Positions 24,595 through 32,489 of a stretch of DNA of 64,000 bases are shown here, piece by piece. Within the stretch, counting starts at the first letter, position 1. Every line of letters starts with the position of its first letter. The notes below the pieces were generated by a model, which searched no databases, had not been told where the DNA came from, and was given only the letters and a program-made list of their open reading frames with translations. Source of the stretch: Blastococcus sp. LR1 (GTDB taxonomy: Bacteria > Actinomycetota > Actinomycetes > Mycobacteriales > Geodermatophilaceae); contig NZ_JAIUJY010000006.1 of assembly GCF_020166105.1 (NCBI RefSeq), positions 186,001 to 250,000 of the forward strand. The letters are read 5' to 3'. The position numbers were made by a program, and so were the translations under genes.

Positions 24595-24668
24595 CGTTGT
24601 GCACCCGCCGGGGCAGGGCCAGGCTGGCCCCACCCGACCACGCGGGGGGCCCGACGGAGGGCCTGACG

Positions 24669-26129
24669 ATGACCGCGGATCCAGGAGTTCGACCGGCACG
24701 TACCGGCACGCACCACGCCGGCGTCGAGGCCGAGGCGGTGGAGTCGGGCTACCTGCAGAAGCGGCAGCTGCGGACGGGGACCGCGGGCTGGGTGCTGCTC
24801 GCCGGCCTCGGGGTGGCCGCGGTCATCTCCGGTGACTACGCGGGGTGGAACTTCGGGCTGGCCGAGGGCGGCTTCGGCGGGCTGCTGATCGCCACCGTGC
24901 TCATGGCGGTGATGTACACGGCCATGGTGTTCGGCCTCGCCGAGCTGGGATCGGCGCTGCCGACGGCGGGTGGTGGCTACACCTTCGCCCGGCGGGCGCT
25001 GGGGCCCTGGGGCGGGTACGCCACCGGGGTCGCGGTCCTCATCGAGTACGCGATCGCGCCGGCGGCCATCGCCACCTTCATCGGCGCCTACGTCGAGTCG
25101 CTGGGGCTGTTCGGGATCACCGACGGCTGGTGGGTCTACCTCGCCGTCTACGCGCTCTTCATCGGCGTGCACCTCCTGGGCGTCGGCGAGGCGCTCAAGG
25201 TCATGCTGGTCATCGCCGCCATCGCCGTCGCCGGGCTGGTGCTCTACCTGGTCGGGGCGATCCCGGCCTTCGACTCCGGCAACCTGCTCGACATCGCGCC
25301 CACCGACGCCGCCGGTGCCTCGGACTTCCTGCCGTTCGGGCTGATGGGCGTGTGGGCTGCGTTCCCGTTCGCCATCTGGTTCTTCCTCGCCGTCGAGTGC
25401 GTGCCGCTGGCCTCGGAGGAGGCGCGGGACCCCGCCCGGGCGTTGCCGCGGGGGATCGTCGCGGCGATGGGCGTCCTCGTCGTCCTCGCCGTCCTCATGC
25501 TGGTGTTCACCGCCGGGGCCGGGGGCTCGCAGGCGATGTCGGCCAGCGGGAACCCGCCCGTGGAGGCGCTGCAGGTGGCCGGCTCGGGGCTGGCCGACGT
25601 CGTCAACTACGCCGGGCTGTTCGGCCTGGTCGCCAGCTTCTTCTCGATCATCTACGCCTACTCCCGGCAGACGTTCGCCCTGTCGCGGGCGGGCTACCTG
25701 CCGCGGGCGCTGTCGGTGACCAACGGCCGCAAGGCCCCGGTGCTGGCGCTGCTGGTGCCCGGCGCCATCGGGTTCGCCCTCTCCCTGACCGGCCAGGGCG
25801 CGATGCTGCTCAACATGGCCGTCTTCGGGGCGACGGTCTCCTACGTGCTGATGATGGTCAGCCACATCGTGCTGCGCCGTCGCGAGCCCGACCTGCCGCG
25901 GCCGTACCGGACGCCGGGCGGCACGGTCACGACCGGCATCGCCCTGGTCCTGGCCGCCGCGGCCGTCGTCGCCACCTTCCTGGTCGACGTCGAGGCCGCG
26001 CTCTGGACGCTGGCCGCCTACGCCGTCTTCCTCGGCTACTTCGCCCTCTACAGCCGGCACCACCTGGTCGCCTCCGCGCCCGAGGAGGAGTTCGAGCTGC
26101 TGGCGGCCGCCGACGAGGACGTGCGGTGA
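24669..26129 (+). CDS. eat: Ethanolamine permease
   Basis: A 486-residue APC-superfamily transporter with about 12 helices. The consensus helix-1 region (I-S-G-D-Y-A-G-W-N-F-G-L) and the acidic V-E-C-V-P-L-A-S-E-E-A motif in the middle are typical of the ethanolamine permease family. Its place directly before eutB and eutC supports ethanolamine import. The ATG lies after GGAGGGCCTGAC. The stop overlaps the eutB start. Confidence 0.85.
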   Translation: MTADPGVRPARTGTHHAGVEAEAVESGYLQKRQLRTGTAGWVLLAGLGVAAVISGDYAGWNFGLAEGGFGGLLIATVLMAVMYTAMVFGLAELGSALPTAGGGYTFARRALGPWGGYATGVAVLIEYAIAPAAIATFIGAYVESLGLFGITDGWWVYLAVYALFIGVHLLGVGEALKVMLVIAAIAVAGLVLYLVGAIPAFDSGNLLDIAPTDAAGASDFLPFGLMGVWAAFPFAIWFFLAVECVPLASEEARDPARALPRGIVAAMGVLVVLAVLMLVFTAGAGGSQAMSASGNPPVEALQVAGSGLADVVNYAGLFGLVASFFSIIYAYSRQTFALSRAGYLPRALSVTNGRKAPVLALLVPGAIGFALSLTGQGAMLLNMAVFGATVSYVLMMVSHIVLRRREPDLPRPYRTPGGTVTTGIALVLAAAAVVATFLVDVEAALWTLAAYAVFLGYFALYSRHHLVASAPEEEFELLAAADEDVR

Positions 26130-27538
26130 TCCGGCGGACGACGCTGTCGGGGCGCACCTTCGAGTTCCCGTCGCTGGCCGACCTCCTGGCGAAGGCGACG
26201 CCGGCGCGCTCCGGTGACGTGCTCGCCGGGTGCGCGGCGGAGTCGGCCGCCCAGCGGGTGGCTGCGCAGCTGGTGCTGGCCGACCTGCCGCTGGCCACCT
26301 TCCTGGAGGAGCAGGTCGTCGGCTACGAGGAGGACGACGTCACCCGGCTGATCCTCGACACGCACGATGCGGCGGCCTTCGCGCCGGTCGCGTCGCTGAC
26401 CGTGGGGGAGTTCCGCGACCGGCTGCTCGGCTGGGCGGCGACCGGCGACGAGGCGGCGATCTCCGGTCTCGCCCGGGGGCTGACTCCGGAGATGGTCGCG
26501 GCTGTGTCGAAGCTGATGCGCAACGCCGATCTGATCGCCGTCGGCCGCCGCACCCGGGTGGTCACCGGGCTGCGCTCGACCCTCGGGCTGCCCGGCAGGC
26601 TGGCCTCGCGACTGCAGCCCAACCATCCGACCGACGACCCGCTGGGCGTGACCGCGTCCATCGTCGACGGGCTGCTGCAGGGCTCGGGGGACGCGGTCAT
26701 CGGCATCAACCCGGCGACCGACTCCCCGGCGCAGACGATCGCGCTGCTGGAGCTGGTCGACGCGGTGATCCGGCGCTACGACATCCCGACCCAGTCCTGC
26801 GTGCTGGCCCACGTGACGACGACGCTCCGGGCGCTGGAGCGGGGCGCGCCCGTGGACCTGGTGTTCCAGTCGGTCGCGGGCACGCAGGGGGCCAACCGCG
26901 GGTTCGGCGTGACCCTCGACCTGCTGGCCGAGGCGCGGGCCGGTGCGCTGGAGCTCGGCCGCGGCACGGTCGGGCGCAACGTCACGTACTTCGAGACCGG
27001 GCAGGGATCGGCGCTCTCGGCCGGCGCGCACCTCGGGGTCGACGGCCGGCCGGTGGACCAGCAGACGCTGGAGTGCCGGGCCTACGCGGTGGCCCGGCAC
27101 TTCGAGCCGCTCCTGGTGAACACCGTCGTCGGTTTCATCGGGCCGGAGTACCTCTACGACGGCAAGCAGGTGGTCCGCGCGGGGCTGGAGGACCACTTCT
27201 GCGGCAAGCTGCTCGGCCTGCCGATGGGCGTGGATGTCTGCTACACCAACCACGCCGAGGTCGACGGCGACGACACCGACGCCCTGATGCTGCTGCTCGG
27301 GGCGGCGGGGTGCTCGTTCCTCATCGCCGTGCCGGGGTCCGACGACGTGATGCTGCACTACCAGTCGCTGTCGTTCTCCGACGTCCTCTCCGCCCGGCAG
27401 GTGCTCGGGCTGCGGCCGGCGCCGGAGTTCGAGGAGTGGCTGGCGCGGATGGACCTGCTCGAGGCCGACGGCCGGGTCCGGTCGCTCGCGCCTGACGCGC
27501 CGGCGGCTCGTGCACTGCTCGCGGCGGCGCAGTCGTGA
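26126..27538 (+). CDS. eutB: Ethanolamine ammonia-lyase, large subunit
   Basis: A 470-residue EutB, the B12-dependent TIM-barrel subunit that converts ethanolamine to acetaldehyde and ammonia. Family features include M-R-N-A-D-L near residue 132, G-I-N-P-A-T-D-S near 193, F-Q-S-V-A-G-T-Q-G-A-N near 250, and E-T-G-Q-G-S-A-L-S near 290. The GTG start overlaps the permease stop (GTGA). Full length for the family. Confidence 0.95.
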   Translation: MIRRTTLSGRTFEFPSLADLLAKATPARSGDVLAGCAAESAAQRVAAQLVLADLPLATFLEEQVVGYEEDDVTRLILDTHDAAAFAPVASLTVGEFRDRLLGWAATGDEAAISGLARGLTPEMVAAVSKLMRNADLIAVGRRTRVVTGLRSTLGLPGRLASRLQPNHPTDDPLGVTASIVDGLLQGSGDAVIGINPATDSPAQTIALLELVDAVIRRYDIPTQSCVLAHVTTTLRALERGAPVDLVFQSVAGTQGANRGFGVTLDLLAEARAGALELGRGTVGRNVTYFETGQGSALSAGAHLGVDGRPVDQQTLECRAYAVARHFEPLLVNTVVGFIGPEYLYDGKQVVRAGLEDHFCGKLLGLPMGVDVCYTNHAEVDGDDTDALMLLLGAAGCSFLIAVPGSDDVMLHYQSLSFSDVLSARQVLGLRPAPEFEEWLARMDLLEADGRVRSLAPDAPAARALLAAAQS

Positions 27539-28269
27539 GCGTCGTCGGCGACGACCCGTGGGCGGTGCTGCGGGGCGCCACCCGGGCGCGGGTGGCGCTC
27601 GGGCGGGCTGGGGACGGGCTGCCCACAGCGCGGGAGCTGGAGTTCCGGGCGGCGCACGCGGTCGCCCGCGACGCGGTGCACATGCCGCTGGAGCCCGACG
27701 TCGTCCGCGCGGCGCTGGGCGACCTCGACGTGGTGGAGGTGCACTCGGCTGCGGCGGATCGCGCGGAGTACCTGCAGCGCCCGGACCTCGGACGGCGACT
27801 CGCCCCGGGCACCGAGCTGCCCTCGGTCGGTGCGGACCTGGGCATCGTGATCGGCGACGGGCTCTCGCCGCGGGCGGTGCACGAGCACGCGGCGGGCACC
27901 GTGACCGCTCTGCTGGAGCGGCTGCCCGGCTGGTCGGTCGCGCCGGTGGTGCTGGCGCAGCAGGCGCGGGTCGGGCTGGGCGACGAGATCGGTGCCGCGC
28001 TGGGCGTGCGGGCGGTGGTGGTGCTGATCGGGGAGCGCCCGGGGCTGTCGTCGGCGGACTCGCTCGGGATCTACCTGACCTGGGACCCGCGTCCGGGGCG
28101 GGCGGACTCCGAGCGGAACTGCGTCTCGAACGTCCGGCCGCCGCACGGGCTCGCCTACGGGCAGGCGGCGGACACCGTGGCGGCGCTGCTGCGTGCGGCG
28201 CGCGAGCTCGGCGCCTCGGGGGTGGCGCTCAAGGACGAGGGGCCCGCGCTGACGTCGGGCGCCGACTGA
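27535..28269 (+). CDS. eutC: Ethanolamine ammonia-lyase, small subunit
   Basis: A 244-residue EutC, partner of EutB. Recognisable parts are T-R-A-R-V-A-L-G-R-A-G-D-G-L near residue 15, V-I-G-D-G-L-S near 107, and N-C-V-S-N-V-R-P-P-H-G-L near 208. GTG start overlaps the eutB stop. No carboxysome-like shell genes, no EutA/EutE and no dehydrogenase follow in the operon, so acetaldehyde must be handled elsewhere. Confidence 0.95.
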   Translation: MSVVGDDPWAVLRGATRARVALGRAGDGLPTARELEFRAAHAVARDAVHMPLEPDVVRAALGDLDVVEVHSAAADRAEYLQRPDLGRRLAPGTELPSVGADLGIVIGDGLSPRAVHEHAAGTVTALLERLPGWSVAPVVLAQQARVGLGDEIGAALGVRAVVVLIGERPGLSSADSLGIYLTWDPRPGRADSERNCVSNVRPPHGLAYGQAADTVAALLRAARELGASGVALKDEGPALTSGAD

Positions 28270-28384: not shown

Positions 28385-28792
28385 ATGGCCAAGTACCTGC
28401 TGCTCAAGCACTACCGCGGCGCACCGGCGGCGGTGAACGACGTCGCCATGGACCGGTGGACGCCGGAGGAGATCGACGCCCACATGGCCTACATGGACGA
28501 CTTCGCGACGAAGCTCGGGGAGACCGGCGAGTTCGTCGACGGGCAGGCACTGCGGCCCGAGGGCGCGTGGGTCCGGTACGACGGCGAGGGGCGGCCGCCG
28601 GTCACCGACGGGCCGTTCCCCGAGACCAAGGACCTGATCGCCGGCTGGATGATCATCGACGTCGACTCCTGGGACCGGGCCGTCGAGCTGGCCGGCGAAC
28701 TGTCCGCGGCCCCCGGGGCCGGTGGGAAGCCGATCCACGAGTGGCTGGAGGTCCGGCCCTTCTTCGACGCCCCTCCCACGTCCGGCGACTGA
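28385..28792 (+). CDS. DGPF/YCII-related domain protein
   Basis: A 135-residue protein with the family order K-Y-L-L-L-K near the start, a central W-x-R-Y-D-G-E-G, and the D-G-P-F-P-E-T-K motif (near residue 77) that names DGPF proteins. Function unknown; such proteins are regular neighbours of ECF42 sigma factors. AAGGAG lies before the ATG. Four bases separate its stop from the sigma factor start. Confidence 0.92.
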   Translation: MAKYLLLKHYRGAPAAVNDVAMDRWTPEEIDAHMAYMDDFATKLGETGEFVDGQALRPEGAWVRYDGEGRPPVTDGPFPETKDLIAGWMIIDVDSWDRAVELAGELSAAPGAGGKPIHEWLEVRPFFDAPPTSGD

Positions 28793-28796
28793 TCGG

Positions 28797-29945
28797 GTGG
28801 ACGAGCCGCGGCTGCGGCAGCTGATCCCCGAGGTGATCGGCGTCCTCGTCCGGCGCGGAGCTGATTTCGCGTCGGCCGAGGACGCCGTCCAGGAGGCGCT
28901 GGTCACCGCGATCCGGACCTGGCCGGAGGATCCGCCGCGGGACGCCAAGGGCTGGCTGGTGACCGTGTCCTGGCGCAAGCACCTGGACCTCCGGCGGTCC
29001 GAGTCCGCCCGCCAGGGCCGCGAGGTCGCCCTCGACCTGGAGCCGCCGCCCGGGCCGGTGCCGACCGTCGACGACACCCTGCGCCTGTACTTCCTGTGCG
29101 CGCACCCCTCGTTGACGCCCGCGTCGGCGGTGGCGCTCACGCTGCGCGCCGTCGGCGGCCTCACCACGCGGCAGATCGCCGAGGCCTACCTCGTGCCGGA
29201 GGCCACGATGGCTCAGCGCATCAGCCGGGCCAAGCGGCGCATCGCCCAGGTGCCGCTCGACCAGCCGGGCGACCTGCCCACGGTGCTGCGGGTGCTCTAC
29301 CTGATCTACAACGAGGGGCACTCCGGAGAGGTCGACCTCGCCACCGAGGCGATCCGGGTGACCCGCCAGCTGGTGGGAGGGGCCGACGACCCCGAGGTCG
29401 CCGGGCTGCTCGCGCTCATGCTCCTGCACCACGCGCGCCGGGCCGCGCGCACCGACGCAGCGGGCCGGCTGGTCCCGCTCGCCGAGCAGGACCGGAGCCG
29501 GTGGGATCCCGCGCTGGTCGCCGAGGGCGTCGGGATCCTGCAGTCCGCCCTCGCCCGCGACCGGCTCGGCGAATACCAGGCCCAGGCGGCGATCGCCGCG
29601 CTGCACGCCGACGCGCGACGGTTCGAAGAGACCGACTGGGTGCAGATCGTGGAGTGGTACGACGAGCTCGTCGCGCTCACCGGCTCCGACGTGGCCCGGC
29701 TCAACCGGGCGGTCGCCGTCGGCGCGGCGGACGGCGCTCTTGCGGGGCTCGCCGCGCTGGCAGAGGTCGACCCGGCCATCCCGCGGCACACCGCCGCCTC
29801 GGCGTACCTGCACGAGCTGGCCGGGCAGCTCGCGGAGGCGGCCGACCTGTACGCGGCGGCGGCGCGGGCGGCCTCGAACCTGGCCGAGCGCGACCACCTC
29901 ACCCGGCGGGCCGCCTGGCTGCGGCAGCGCACCGACCAGGGCTGA
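28797..29945 (+). CDS. ECF42-type RNA polymerase sigma factor with C-terminal extension
   Basis: A 382-residue protein. Sigma region 2 is near residues 20-60 (D-F-A-S-A-E-D-A-V-Q-E-A). Sigma region 4, with the T-T-R-Q-I-A-E-A-Y-L-V-P-E-A-T helix-turn-helix, follows near 120-150. A 200-residue helical extension (Y-N-E-G-H near 170, TPR-like) is typical of ECF42 and no anti-sigma factor is needed nearby. GTG start, four bases after the DGPF stop. It presumably drives the promoter in front of the DGPF gene. Confidence 0.9.
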   Translation: MDEPRLRQLIPEVIGVLVRRGADFASAEDAVQEALVTAIRTWPEDPPRDAKGWLVTVSWRKHLDLRRSESARQGREVALDLEPPPGPVPTVDDTLRLYFLCAHPSLTPASAVALTLRAVGGLTTRQIAEAYLVPEATMAQRISRAKRRIAQVPLDQPGDLPTVLRVLYLIYNEGHSGEVDLATEAIRVTRQLVGGADDPEVAGLLALMLLHHARRAARTDAAGRLVPLAEQDRSRWDPALVAEGVGILQSALARDRLGEYQAQAAIAALHADARRFEETDWVQIVEWYDELVALTGSDVARLNRAVAVGAADGALAGLAALAEVDPAIPRHTAASAYLHELAGQLAEAADLYAAAARAASNLAERDHLTRRAAWLRQRTDQG

Positions 29946-30075: not shown

Positions 30076-30996
30076 ATGGACACGCCCATGCCCGAGCTGC
30101 AGACCATGCCGCTCGGTCTCTACGACGTGGTGCAGCTGGCGCTGCTCGGCGCCTTCTTCGCACTGTTCGCCTACTTCGTGTACTCGTGGAACAGCTTGGA
30201 CGAGGTGTCGCCGCGGTACCGGCCCTCGGTGCTCGCCGGGCTCTGCCTGTCGGGTGTCGCGATGCTGGCCTACGTCCTGCTCTACCAGGACTGGGACTCC
30301 GGCTTCCGGCTCGAGGGCGAGGTCTACGTCCCGAACGAGGAGGCGCGGAACACTCTCGGCACCCGGTACATCGACTGGTCGGTCACCGTTCCGCTGCTGA
30401 CCGTCGAGCTGCTCGCCGTCTGCTCGGTGGCCGGCGCCGCCGCCCGGAGGCTGCGCTTCACCACGATGGCCGCGGCGTTCCTGATGATCGTGACCGGCTA
30501 CATGGGGTCACAGGTGCTGTCGGAGGGCCGCGACACCACCGCGCTGGTGGTGTGGGGGCTGATCAGCACCGCGTTCTTCGTCTACCTGTACGTCGCGCTC
30601 ATCGGCGCGGTCCGCGCCTCGCTGCCCACCATGGGCGCGGAGGCCGCGGCCAGCCTGCGCAACGCGACGATCGTGCTGCTCAGCAGCTTCGGGGTGTACC
30701 CCCTGGTCTACGCCGTGCCGGTGTTCGTCGACGTCACCCCGGCCTGGTTCACCGGGATGCAGGTCGGCTACTCGGTGGCCGACGTCGTGGCCAAGGTGGG
30801 CTTCGGGGTCCTGACCCACAAGGTGGCCAAGCTGCGCACGGCGGAGGACGTCGTCTCCGGCGTCGACACCCATCCGGAGGCGGTGTGGTCCGGCAACGTG
30901 CAGAAGAGCGAGGCGGTGCTACCCGCGGTGCGCGGGGCGTCGACCCCGGCCGGCGCGGGGCGCCGGCCGGGGGACGAAGGGGTCAGCGGGCGTTGA
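30076..30996 (+). CDS. Microbial rhodopsin, xanthorhodopsin-like proton pump
   Basis: A 306-residue seven-helix protein. In helix C, R97-Y-I-D100-W101-x2-T104-x-P-L-L108-x2-E111 gives the D-T-E set of light-driven proton pumps. In helix G, D236-x3-K240 supplies the counterion Asp and the retinal-binding Lys. L108 is at the green-tuning position. G161, after W160 in helix E, stands where bacteriorhodopsin has Trp138 and matches the glycine that opens the carotenoid window in xanthorhodopsin. Oddities are F205 at the retinal-sandwich Trp182 position and A65 where proteorhodopsin-type pumps have a His. A 55-residue cytoplasmic tail follows. No carotenoid or retinal synthesis genes are nearby. 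GGAG lies five bases before the ATG. Confidence 0.93.
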   Translation: MDTPMPELQTMPLGLYDVVQLALLGAFFALFAYFVYSWNSLDEVSPRYRPSVLAGLCLSGVAMLAYVLLYQDWDSGFRLEGEVYVPNEEARNTLGTRYIDWSVTVPLLTVELLAVCSVAGAAARRLRFTTMAAAFLMIVTGYMGSQVLSEGRDTTALVVWGLISTAFFVYLYVALIGAVRASLPTMGAEAAASLRNATIVLLSSFGVYPLVYAVPVFVDVTPAWFTGMQVGYSVADVVAKVGFGVLTHKVAKLRTAEDVVSGVDTHPEAVWSGNVQKSEAVLPAVRGASTPAGAGRRPGDEGVSGR

Positions 30997-31531
30997 TCCC
31001 GGCGGCCACCTCGCTGGGGCGCTGCTGCTCGCCGGCGTAGGAGCTGATCGCGACCAGCGTGCCGGTGAGCGCGGGGATGACCCACTGCAGGGTGTCCAGC
31101 TGCTGCTGGGCGGCGGCGACGTCGGCCTGCGCGACCTTGGTCCGCTTGCTCGGCTTCGTGCCCGACTTCGACGGCACACCGCCGGCGGCCGAGACGCGCG
31201 CGCCCAGGACCCGGCTGTAGGCGGTCGCGCCCAGGGCGGCCGCGGTGACCAGCGTCTTGAGGGCCGACATGCTGCCGACGCCCTGCTGCGCGGCGACCCG
31301 CTGCTTGTTGGCGCGCAGCTGGCCGACGCTGCCGATCAGGTGCGCACCGATGGCGGCGGCGTTGACCGGCGTCCAGCGGTCCCAGCCGGCGTTGGCGACC
31401 CGGCCGGTGGCCGAGTCCGATCCGGCTTCGCCCGCGGCGGCGTTCAGTGCGACTGCGTTGGCCAGCGTGCCGCCGAACCAGGCGGACAGGCCGAGGTCGT
31501 GCAACGAGCGGGACAGGGTGTTGCGAGCCAT
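30983..31531 (-). CDS. Hypothetical membrane-associated protein (182 aa)
   Basis: A 182-residue Ala-rich protein with four weak hydrophobic stretches (about 14-34, 55-72, 88-108 and 146-166) and a Lys/Ser-rich loop between (K-S-G-T-K-P-S-K-R-T-K). Unknown function; it resembles actinobacterial ORFs without a name. GAGGAG lies before the ATG. Its last codons overlap the end of the rhodopsin gene by 14 bp, tail to tail. Confidence 0.65.
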   Translation of the reverse strand: MARNTLSRSLHDLGLSAWFGGTLANAVALNAAAGEAGSDSATGRVANAGWDRWTPVNAAAIGAHLIGSVGQLRANKQRVAAQQGVGSMSALKTLVTAAALGATAYSRVLGARVSAAGGVPSKSGTKPSKRTKVAQADVAAAQQQLDTLQWVIPALTGTLVAISSYAGEQQRPSEVAAGINAR

Positions 31532-31859: not shown

Positions 31860-32489
31860 GTGCCCGAGCTCTCGTTGGACGACTCGGTCGACCTCACCCG
31901 CACCGGCGACGTCTGGGTCTTCCGCGGCGCCTCCGTCGCCGACCGGGCCATCCAGACGCTGACCAACGCGCCGGTGAACCACGTCGGGATGGCCGTCGTC
32001 CTGGAGGACCTGCCGCCGCTGCTCTGGCACGCCGAGCTCGGCCGCTCGCTGCCCGACGTCTGGACCGGTCAGCACCAGCGCGGCGTGCAGCTGCACGACC
32101 TGCGCGACGCCGTCGTCACCTGGCGGCAGAAGTACGGGCAGCGGGCCTGGCTGCGGCAGCTGATCGGCCCGTCCGACGACGGCGGTGTGACCCCGGAGAT
32201 GGAGGACGCCGTCCTGCGCACCATCGCCCGGATGGACGGCCGGCCGTTCCCGACCACCTCGAAGCTGGCGCGCGGCTGGGTCAACGGCCGGTTGCGGCGC
32301 GGGACCAGCACCGAGGCGATCTACTGCGCCGAGCTGGTCGCGGCCACCTACACCGCGATGGGACTGCTGCCCGCCGACCGCCCGCAGAACTGGTACGACC
32401 CCGGCAGCTTCTGGTCGGAGGACCACCTCGAGCTGCTGCAGGGCGCCCGGCTCGGCCCGGAGATCCCGGTGGACGTGGCGGCCGCCTAG
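31860..32489 (+). CDS. YiiX/permuted NlpC-P60-like hydrolase
   Basis: A 209-residue protein of the permuted papain-like group (YiiX, PF05708 type). H41 in N-H-V-G-M-A comes first, and the nucleophile C156 in I-Y-C-A-E-L-V-A follows, which is the permuted order. No signal peptide is visible, so it is probably cytoplasmic. The family cleaves amide or thioester bonds in lipids or peptides; the substrate is unknown. GTG start with a -10 element eight bases upstream. Confidence 0.7.
   Translation: MPELSLDDSVDLTRTGDVWVFRGASVADRAIQTLTNAPVNHVGMAVVLEDLPPLLWHAELGRSLPDVWTGQHQRGVQLHDLRDAVVTWRQKYGQRAWLRQLIGPSDDGGVTPEMEDAVLRTIARMDGRPFPTTSKLARGWVNGRLRRGTSTEAIYCAELVAATYTAMGLLPADRPQNWYDPGSFWSEDHLELLQGARLGPEIPVDVAAA

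Follow-up and report, generated by a model that had tools for sequence, protein, structure and literature searches.

What does a rhodopsin do in a bacterium that has carotenoid genes and in which no known retinal-forming enzyme is found? The question is raised by one gene of Blastococcus sp. LR1 that lies in the window, by which we mean the whole stretch of 64,000 nucleotides that was analyzed. An earlier note had read this gene as a green-tuned, light-driven proton pump with the glycine that in xanthorhodopsin (XR) lets a carotenoid lie on the retinal, and had placed the retinal synthesis genes elsewhere in the genome.

A rhodopsin gene with the residues of an outward pump

The frame at 30076-30996 on the forward strand runs from an ATG start to a TGA stop. 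It matches the Pfam model Bac_rhodopsin (PF01036) with E=1e-29 and 104 bits (cut-off 24.6) and is the sole PF01036 match in a genome of 4.02 Mb, held in 10 contigs and rated 100% complete; NCBIfam models give no match to the protein at E 0.001. AlphaFold2 (56 sequences) predicts seven helices with a mean pLDDT of 92.9. With seven helices, the retinal lysine and a PF01036 score over the cut-off, the product is a microbial (type 1) rhodopsin. A chance open reading frame is excluded by the 64-90% identity that 30 members of its lineage show to it in one alignment, together with the low dN/dS given below. Its nearest named relatives are Blastococcus records, at 90% (locus L002), 88% (L012) and 85% (L003) identity over the best segment. 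The 306-residue rhodopsin of the earlier note is thus a real gene, by its Pfam match, its predicted helices and its conserved relatives. Its features, all on the forward strand, are as follows.

30076..30996, +, the whole rhodopsin gene, 306 codons and a stop (ORF, Pfam match, AlphaFold2 model)
Predicted helices, residues 13-39, 46-76, 88-114, 120-151, 154-185, 188-217 and 222-260 (AlphaFold2)
30238..30240, +, Gly55, position of the cryorhodopsin (CryoR) arginine and of BR T46 (alignment)
30268..30270, +, Ala65, where xanthorhodopsin-type pumps have the histidine that pairs with the counterion, XR H62 and GR H87 (alignment)
30373..30375, +, Asp100, position of the Schiff-base counterion and proton acceptor, XR D96 (alignment)
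30385..30387, +, Thr104, XR T100 (alignment)
30397..30399, +, Leu108, green-type spectral tuning position, PR L105 (alignment)
30406..30408, +, Glu111, position of the cytoplasmic proton donor, XR E107 (alignment)
30556..30558, +, Gly161, fenestration glycine, XR G156 and GR G178 (alignment)
30688..30690, +, Phe205 (TTC), where nearly all other rhodopsins have a helix-F tryptophan, XR W200, GR W222 and BR W182 (alignment)
30709..30711, +, Tyr212, XR Tyr207, second published carotenoid-site residue (alignment)
30781..30783, +, Asp236, second counterion position, XR D236 (alignment)
30793..30795, +, Lys240, retinal Schiff-base lysine, XR K240 (alignment)
30847..30930, +, C-terminal extension, residues 258-285, common to CryoR1 and CryoR2 (alignment, AlphaFold2)

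The outward-pump (DTE) residue set is complete: D100, T104, E111, D236 and K240. These residues and G161 stand where the earlier note had put them and align with functional residues of xanthorhodopsin, and the green tuning that it predicted is consistent with the leucine at position 108. The D-T-E triad, Asp236 and Lys240 are kept in all 39 members of a Geodermatophilaceae lineage defined below, including those from 20 genomes in which the retinal-making enzyme Blh is not found. Phe205, the missing histidine (XR H62, here Ala65) and the C-terminal extension of cryorhodopsin type are features that the earlier note did not mention.

Kinship with the cryorhodopsins

Searched by sequence against solved structures, the protein is closest to CryoR1 (2.8e-65) and CryoR2 (2.7e-61), followed by Gloeobacter rhodopsin (GR; 5.5e-35) and xanthorhodopsin (4.9e-33). 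Foldseek, run on the AlphaFold2 model, likewise returns CryoR1 and CryoR2 as its best matches, and VIA-align scores their seven entries at Z 36.7-39.4 with 40-42% identity, the next match standing at 31.9. Residues 258-285, in which strands are predicted at 270-272 and 275-278, align with CryoR1 and CryoR2; the xanthorhodopsin match stops before this extension.

A tree of 89 proteins, from which alignment columns 55 and 205 were omitted, agrees. It holds 39 rows of the Geodermatophilaceae lineage, 32 from Microbacteriaceae (CryoR1 and CryoR2 included) and 18 others of xanthorhodopsin, actinorhodopsin-like, NDQ and NTQ type. A branch with 100/100 support parts the lineage and the Microbacteriaceae proteins from the 18 other rows; this branch and the best matches rule out assignment to the xanthorhodopsins, so that the likeness drawn in the earlier note gives way to a place beside the cryorhodopsins. 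The arginine-bearing cryorhodopsin clade (20 rows, support 100/99) leaves the window protein outside, in a sister group. Support for the 39-row lineage is 94/61, and of 200 bootstrap trees 98% recover it as a single group; both figures should be read with the long branches in mind that meet where the outgroup joins. The rhodopsin belongs to this Geodermatophilaceae lineage, sister to the cryorhodopsins and arginine-free Microbacteriaceae relatives, the latter rows perhaps including DSE rhodopsins.

A possible sensor and its marks

This kinship bears on a reading different from a pump. The protein would switch slowly or sense light, as cryorhodopsins do, and would signal through its conserved C-terminal extension and a partner of another kind. 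PMC12227055 gives a helix-B arginine as the defining mark of cryorhodopsins, treats the co-encoded DUF7882 protein as a putative transducer, and describes for CryoR1 and CryoR2 an extremely slow photocycle, a UV-absorbing state and inward translocation. The arginine is reported there to stabilize the long-lived UV state; in the R57T variant of CryoR1 decay is about 100 times faster at pH 8, and not at pH 10.5. A sensor is favored by the fact that CryoR1 and CryoR2 are the best matches in both sequence and fold over nearly the whole chain, extension included (an elongated C-terminus, a cryorhodopsin trait, is present in the window protein), and Phe205 may slow or trap the photocycle, by analogy with GR W222F. 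Against it, neither the arginine nor the DUF7882 partner was found. Position 55 is Gly in 26 lineage members, Ala in 12 and Ser in one, where CryoR1 and CryoR2 have Arg, so that the alignment shows the arginine in 0 of 39. The DUF7882 profile (PF25355) has no match in the window's genome, nor in any of the 38 lineage genomes searched (all but G037); the control, a single genome (G504), gave matches in 8 places. Truncation of the extension in CryoR1 is also reported to have left a long-lived state similar to wild type (PMC12227055).

How closely the two marks go together can be seen in 30 Microbacteriaceae loci (L147-L176), read with about 1.4 kb on each side out of 39 places scoring >150 bits. 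A DUF7882-like frame, in varying orientation, adjoins all 18 of the arginine-bearing rhodopsin genes and none of the 12 that are arginine-free. In the loci read, the two marks occur as a pair. The Geodermatophilaceae lineage shows neither, which fits the arginine as the mark of a sensor module that the lineage lacks. Assignment to the cryorhodopsins proper is ruled out by Gly55, by the failure to find DUF7882 and by the place outside the arginine-bearing clade. A cryorhodopsin-like sensor is on balance unlikely, if a serious candidate.

A fixed phenylalanine in helix F

At the helix-F tryptophan position, each of the 39 lineage members has Phe. All 50 other rows have Trp, as do 31 of the 32 Microbacteriaceae rows. 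Phe205 is therefore fixed in the lineage. (The one Microbacteriaceae exception, L173, has Leu at this position, with a DSE triad.) The counterion surroundings differ as well. A histidine partner to the counterion is usual among DTE outward pumps and is not required in all pumps; the counterpart of XR H62 occurs in 0 of the 71 lineage and Microbacteriaceae rows and in 40 of the 50 others. The light-driven pump of the earlier note accordingly keeps its DTE triad and its retinal lysine but must contend with Phe205, which replaces a tryptophan important in Gloeobacter rhodopsin. There, W222F is reported to leave about 9% of wild-type pumping, the L state forming without deprotonation of the chromophore (PMC10510653); the corresponding bacteriorhodopsin mutant, W182F, is reported to keep most of its activity (PMC9364214). 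The effect of Phe205 in the background of this lineage cannot be predicted from sequence. In this lineage nature provides a W-to-F change to set beside the laboratory mutants.

A possible carotenoid site

Also to be weighed is a pump like xanthorhodopsin with a bound carotenoid antenna. The published site, as set out in PMC12308411 (see also PMC13093654), rests on XR Gly156 as the primary and Tyr207 as the second residue. The lineage matches both in all 39 members (Gly161 and Tyr212), with Thr165 in 36 of 39, and the genome could supply a carotenoid: genes for a polyprenyl synthase, a phytoene desaturase and a phytoene synthase stand in a row, adjoined by two lycopene-cyclase halves of 115 and 140 aa. 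In keeping with the earlier note, the host is an actinobacterium with carotenoid genes, a paired lycopene cyclase among them. (A single lycopene cyclase of CrtY type was rejected: PF05834 matches in seven places only over first stretches of 30-46 profile positions, four of them over the cut-off, and we read these as nucleotide-binding motifs.)

The glycine, however, is general. It is found at the fenestration position in 118 of 122 rows, comprising 39 of 39 in the lineage, 29 of 32 in the Microbacteriaceae group and 50 of 50 others, NDQ-type rows among them; the remaining row, L014, has Phe. The earlier note was right that G161 is the counterpart of XR G156, but a residue so widespread is no special mark of an antenna, and we rejected it as antenna evidence in its own right. 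Some further positions differ. XR Met208 and Met211 correspond to Ala213 (Ala in 37 of 39 lineage members) and Val216, a change that may or may not matter. Ser208 and Tyr209 of Kin4B8, reported near the carotenoid hydroxyl (PMC12308411), are not evidently matched by the residues here, Val216 and Phe217, if the XR numbering offset is assumed, Kin4B8 itself standing outside the alignment. A carotenoid could fit beside the retinal, in that Gly161 would permit one without indicating one, and a bound antenna seems quite improbable.

The gene neighborhood

The genes around the rhodopsin are listed here.

24654-28269, +, consecutive genes for an amino-acid permease, EutB and EutC
28385-29945, +, YCII-domain gene, then ECF-type sigma factor with DUF6596, upstream of the rhodopsin
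30983-31531, -, 182-aa frame without Pfam match, tail to tail with the rhodopsin, 14-base overlap
31860-32489, +, 209-aa frame without Pfam match, whose copies in the two nearest Blastococcus loci are 91-93% identical

EutB and EutC make up an ethanolamine ammonia-lyase, and the permease beside them is its likely transporter. A YCII-domain gene and a DUF6596 ECF-type sigma factor are a recurring pair in actinobacteria; some relatives carry homologues, about 40% identical, close to the rhodopsin. Copies of the 182-aa frame, 86-97% identical, lie near the rhodopsin in the Blastococcus-type loci L002, L003, L004, L007, L012 and L061, making 7 of 32 loci with the window. (L007 belongs to a record titled 'Bacillus sp. 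AZ43', UNVERIFIED_ORG, that carries Geodermatophilaceae-type genes.) No sigma-70-type promoter or terminator was found near the rhodopsin gene.

No gene is common to the neighborhoods of the whole lineage in 32 loci (31 and the window, with 2.6-kb flanks), which counts further against a sensor. Partial groups exist. The two largest, both downstream, take in 22 and 12 loci and were dismissed by eye as low-complexity stretches in the wrong frame; several smaller ones take in 5-7 loci each. The most widespread recognizable gene among the partial neighbors is blh.

Retinal supply and a local loss of blh

The search for a beta-carotene dioxygenase that the earlier note proposed, and on whose failure it would have given up the pump, finds no known cleavage enzyme: the window's genome, for all its rated completeness, has no match to Blh (BCD, PF15461) and none to an RPE65-type enzyme, the latter sought in this one lineage genome, with two control genomes positive. 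The retinal genes expected elsewhere are thus missing as far as these enzymes go. This does not refute a pump, because the actinobacterium Aurantimicrobium minutum is reported to lack the known retinal genes and yet to contain retinal and pump (PMC7734400).

Presence and absence of Blh were judged throughout by the one Pfam profile, which was silent in 14 named control genomes. Of 112 family genomes, 33 give a match. A lineage rhodopsin is present in 39 genomes, 19 of them with the enzyme and 20 without, these last being 99-100% complete save for G037 (84%), G010 (91%) and G090 (95%). In 12 of the 19, blh lies directly downstream of the rhodopsin on the same strand, and in seven it lies elsewhere; counted by locus, it is downstream in 12 of 38 (trimmed query) or 10 of 32 (2.6-kb flanks). 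The enzyme was found far from the sole rhodopsin detected in G042, G047, G048, G050 and G056. Genomes with a lineage rhodopsin and no other have Blh in 15 of 35 cases, versus 16 of 17 for those with other rhodopsins (p=0.0003 by a Fisher test that treats genomes as independent, which they are not) and 2 of 60 for family genomes without rhodopsin. Its distribution requires at least nine changes on the tree.

One local loss can be seen in the gene order. Nine loci have a kinase-like gene downstream, which in one seven-locus group looks to us like a pyridoxal kinase, and in seven of the nine (L009, L063, L064, L066, L071, L076 and L078) blh stands between this gene and the rhodopsin. In G040 (L065), where no Blh is found, about 80 bases part the rhodopsin from the start of the kinase-like gene; in G042 (L069), where blh lies elsewhere, the distance is about 360 bases. 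On the tree L065 nests among relatives with blh in place (L009, L063, L064). The gap in these two loci marks a place from which blh was lost or removed while the rhodopsin stayed. Such a loss is also the most likely history of the window's own line.

A rhodopsin kept without a retinal gene could have been kept for something other than light. Opsins are reported to have a retinal-independent scramblase activity, put forward in PMC12805836 as an explanation for opsins in genomes that lack the last retinal gene, and the window's gene might likewise serve mainly a light-independent role such as phospholipid scrambling, in a lineage with no retinal. The missing enzymes, Blh in the window's genome and 19 others of the lineage and the RPE65 type in the window's genome, are in accord with this. 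A chromophore-free role, however, needs neither Lys240 nor the pump triad, and both are unchanged in 39 of 39 members, those without Blh included; and, on the example of A. minutum, the known genes are not needed to make retinal (PMC7734400). We regard a light-independent role as very unlikely.

Over residues 1-256, dN/dS is 0.06-0.24 in 14 chosen pairs. The five pairs in which both genomes have Blh span 0.06-0.22, the eight in which neither has it 0.09-0.24, and the single mixed pair gives 0.17. The window gene and its three near relatives without Blh give 0.14-0.20 over four pairs (0.14, 0.19 and 0.16 against L002, L003 and L012, and 0.20 for L002 against L003). No relaxed selection is seen in the Blh-less pairs among these 14. 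The tail is looser, at 0.5-0.7. The low values over residues 1-256 show that the rhodopsin gene is not decaying.

A probable function

The explanation that we prefer, at roughly even chances of being right, is a green-absorbing outward proton pump, probably weak or slow, whose retinal comes from outside the cell or from another enzyme. From the sequence we infer each of its parts, namely the binding of retinal, the absorption of light, the direction and strength of transport and the source of the retinal. The protein would bind retinal at Lys240 and absorb green light, and protons would move outward through a relay of D100, K240 and E111. Phe205 would loosen the contact with the retinal and the counterion would lack its histidine partner, which is why the pump is probably weak or slow. 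The window's own line having most likely lost its downstream blh, the retinal would then be drawn from outside the cell or from an enzyme of another kind; with no cleavage enzyme detected, it may be that the protein carries no pigment in vivo. Such a pump is favored by the residue set in 39 of 39 members, by the absence of the cryorhodopsin arginine from the same 39, by the failure to find DUF7882 in the 38 genomes searched, by the low dN/dS of the window gene and its near Blh-less relatives and by blh, a retinal-making gene, as the functional partner where one is visible (12 of 39 genomes). The precedent of W222F at about 9%, the slow, inward-translocating neighbors CryoR1 and CryoR2, the missing histidine and the lack of a cleavage enzyme count against it. 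It is possible, though we would not expect it, that the lineage runs on a different photochemistry (a slow switch or sensor without cryorhodopsin arginine or transducer) or on retinal formed by some enzyme other than the known ones.

On such a reading the lineage would be a natural test of the role of the sandwich tryptophan and of retinal supply in bacteria without Blh. Across a DTE lineage nature has fixed the W-to-F change by which proton transfer is largely uncoupled in a Gloeobacter rhodopsin mutant, and the family keeps its rhodopsin genes at low dN/dS both with and without the retinal-making gene. The protein itself leaves the xanthorhodopsins for the border of the cryorhodopsins, a region in which pump-like relatives adjoin sensor-like ones.

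Comparison with known systems

The lineage has probably been described already. Tarlachkov et al. (2020, Bioinformatics btz840) reportedly defined a 'DTEF' group of Geodermatophilaceae rhodopsins; the host family is the same, and the name fits DTE plus Phe205 in 39 of 39 members. Rhodopsin genes in Geodermatophilaceae are also announced in PMC10190537. Among the records listed by a literature search, from whose coverage most subscription journals are absent, no title or abstract opening describes the function of the lineage.

Xanthorhodopsin and Gloeobacter rhodopsin share with the window protein the DTE triad, Gly161, Tyr212 and Leu108, but they are only 31.5% and 34.4% identical to it, stand across the 100/100 branch and possess the counterion histidine and the helix-F tryptophan, neither of which it has. 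CryoR1 and CryoR2 are its best counterparts in sequence, fold and C-terminal extension; they differ in their arginine (here Gly55), their counterion Glu (here Asp) and their Trp (here Phe205), in the DUF7882 partner not found in the lineage and in belonging to another bacterial family. The DSE rhodopsins, given in PMC12227055 as the nearest relatives of the cryorhodopsins, with elongated N and C termini and no arginine, resemble the window protein in the elongated C-terminus and the missing arginine, and differ from it in that it is a DTE rhodopsin with Phe205.
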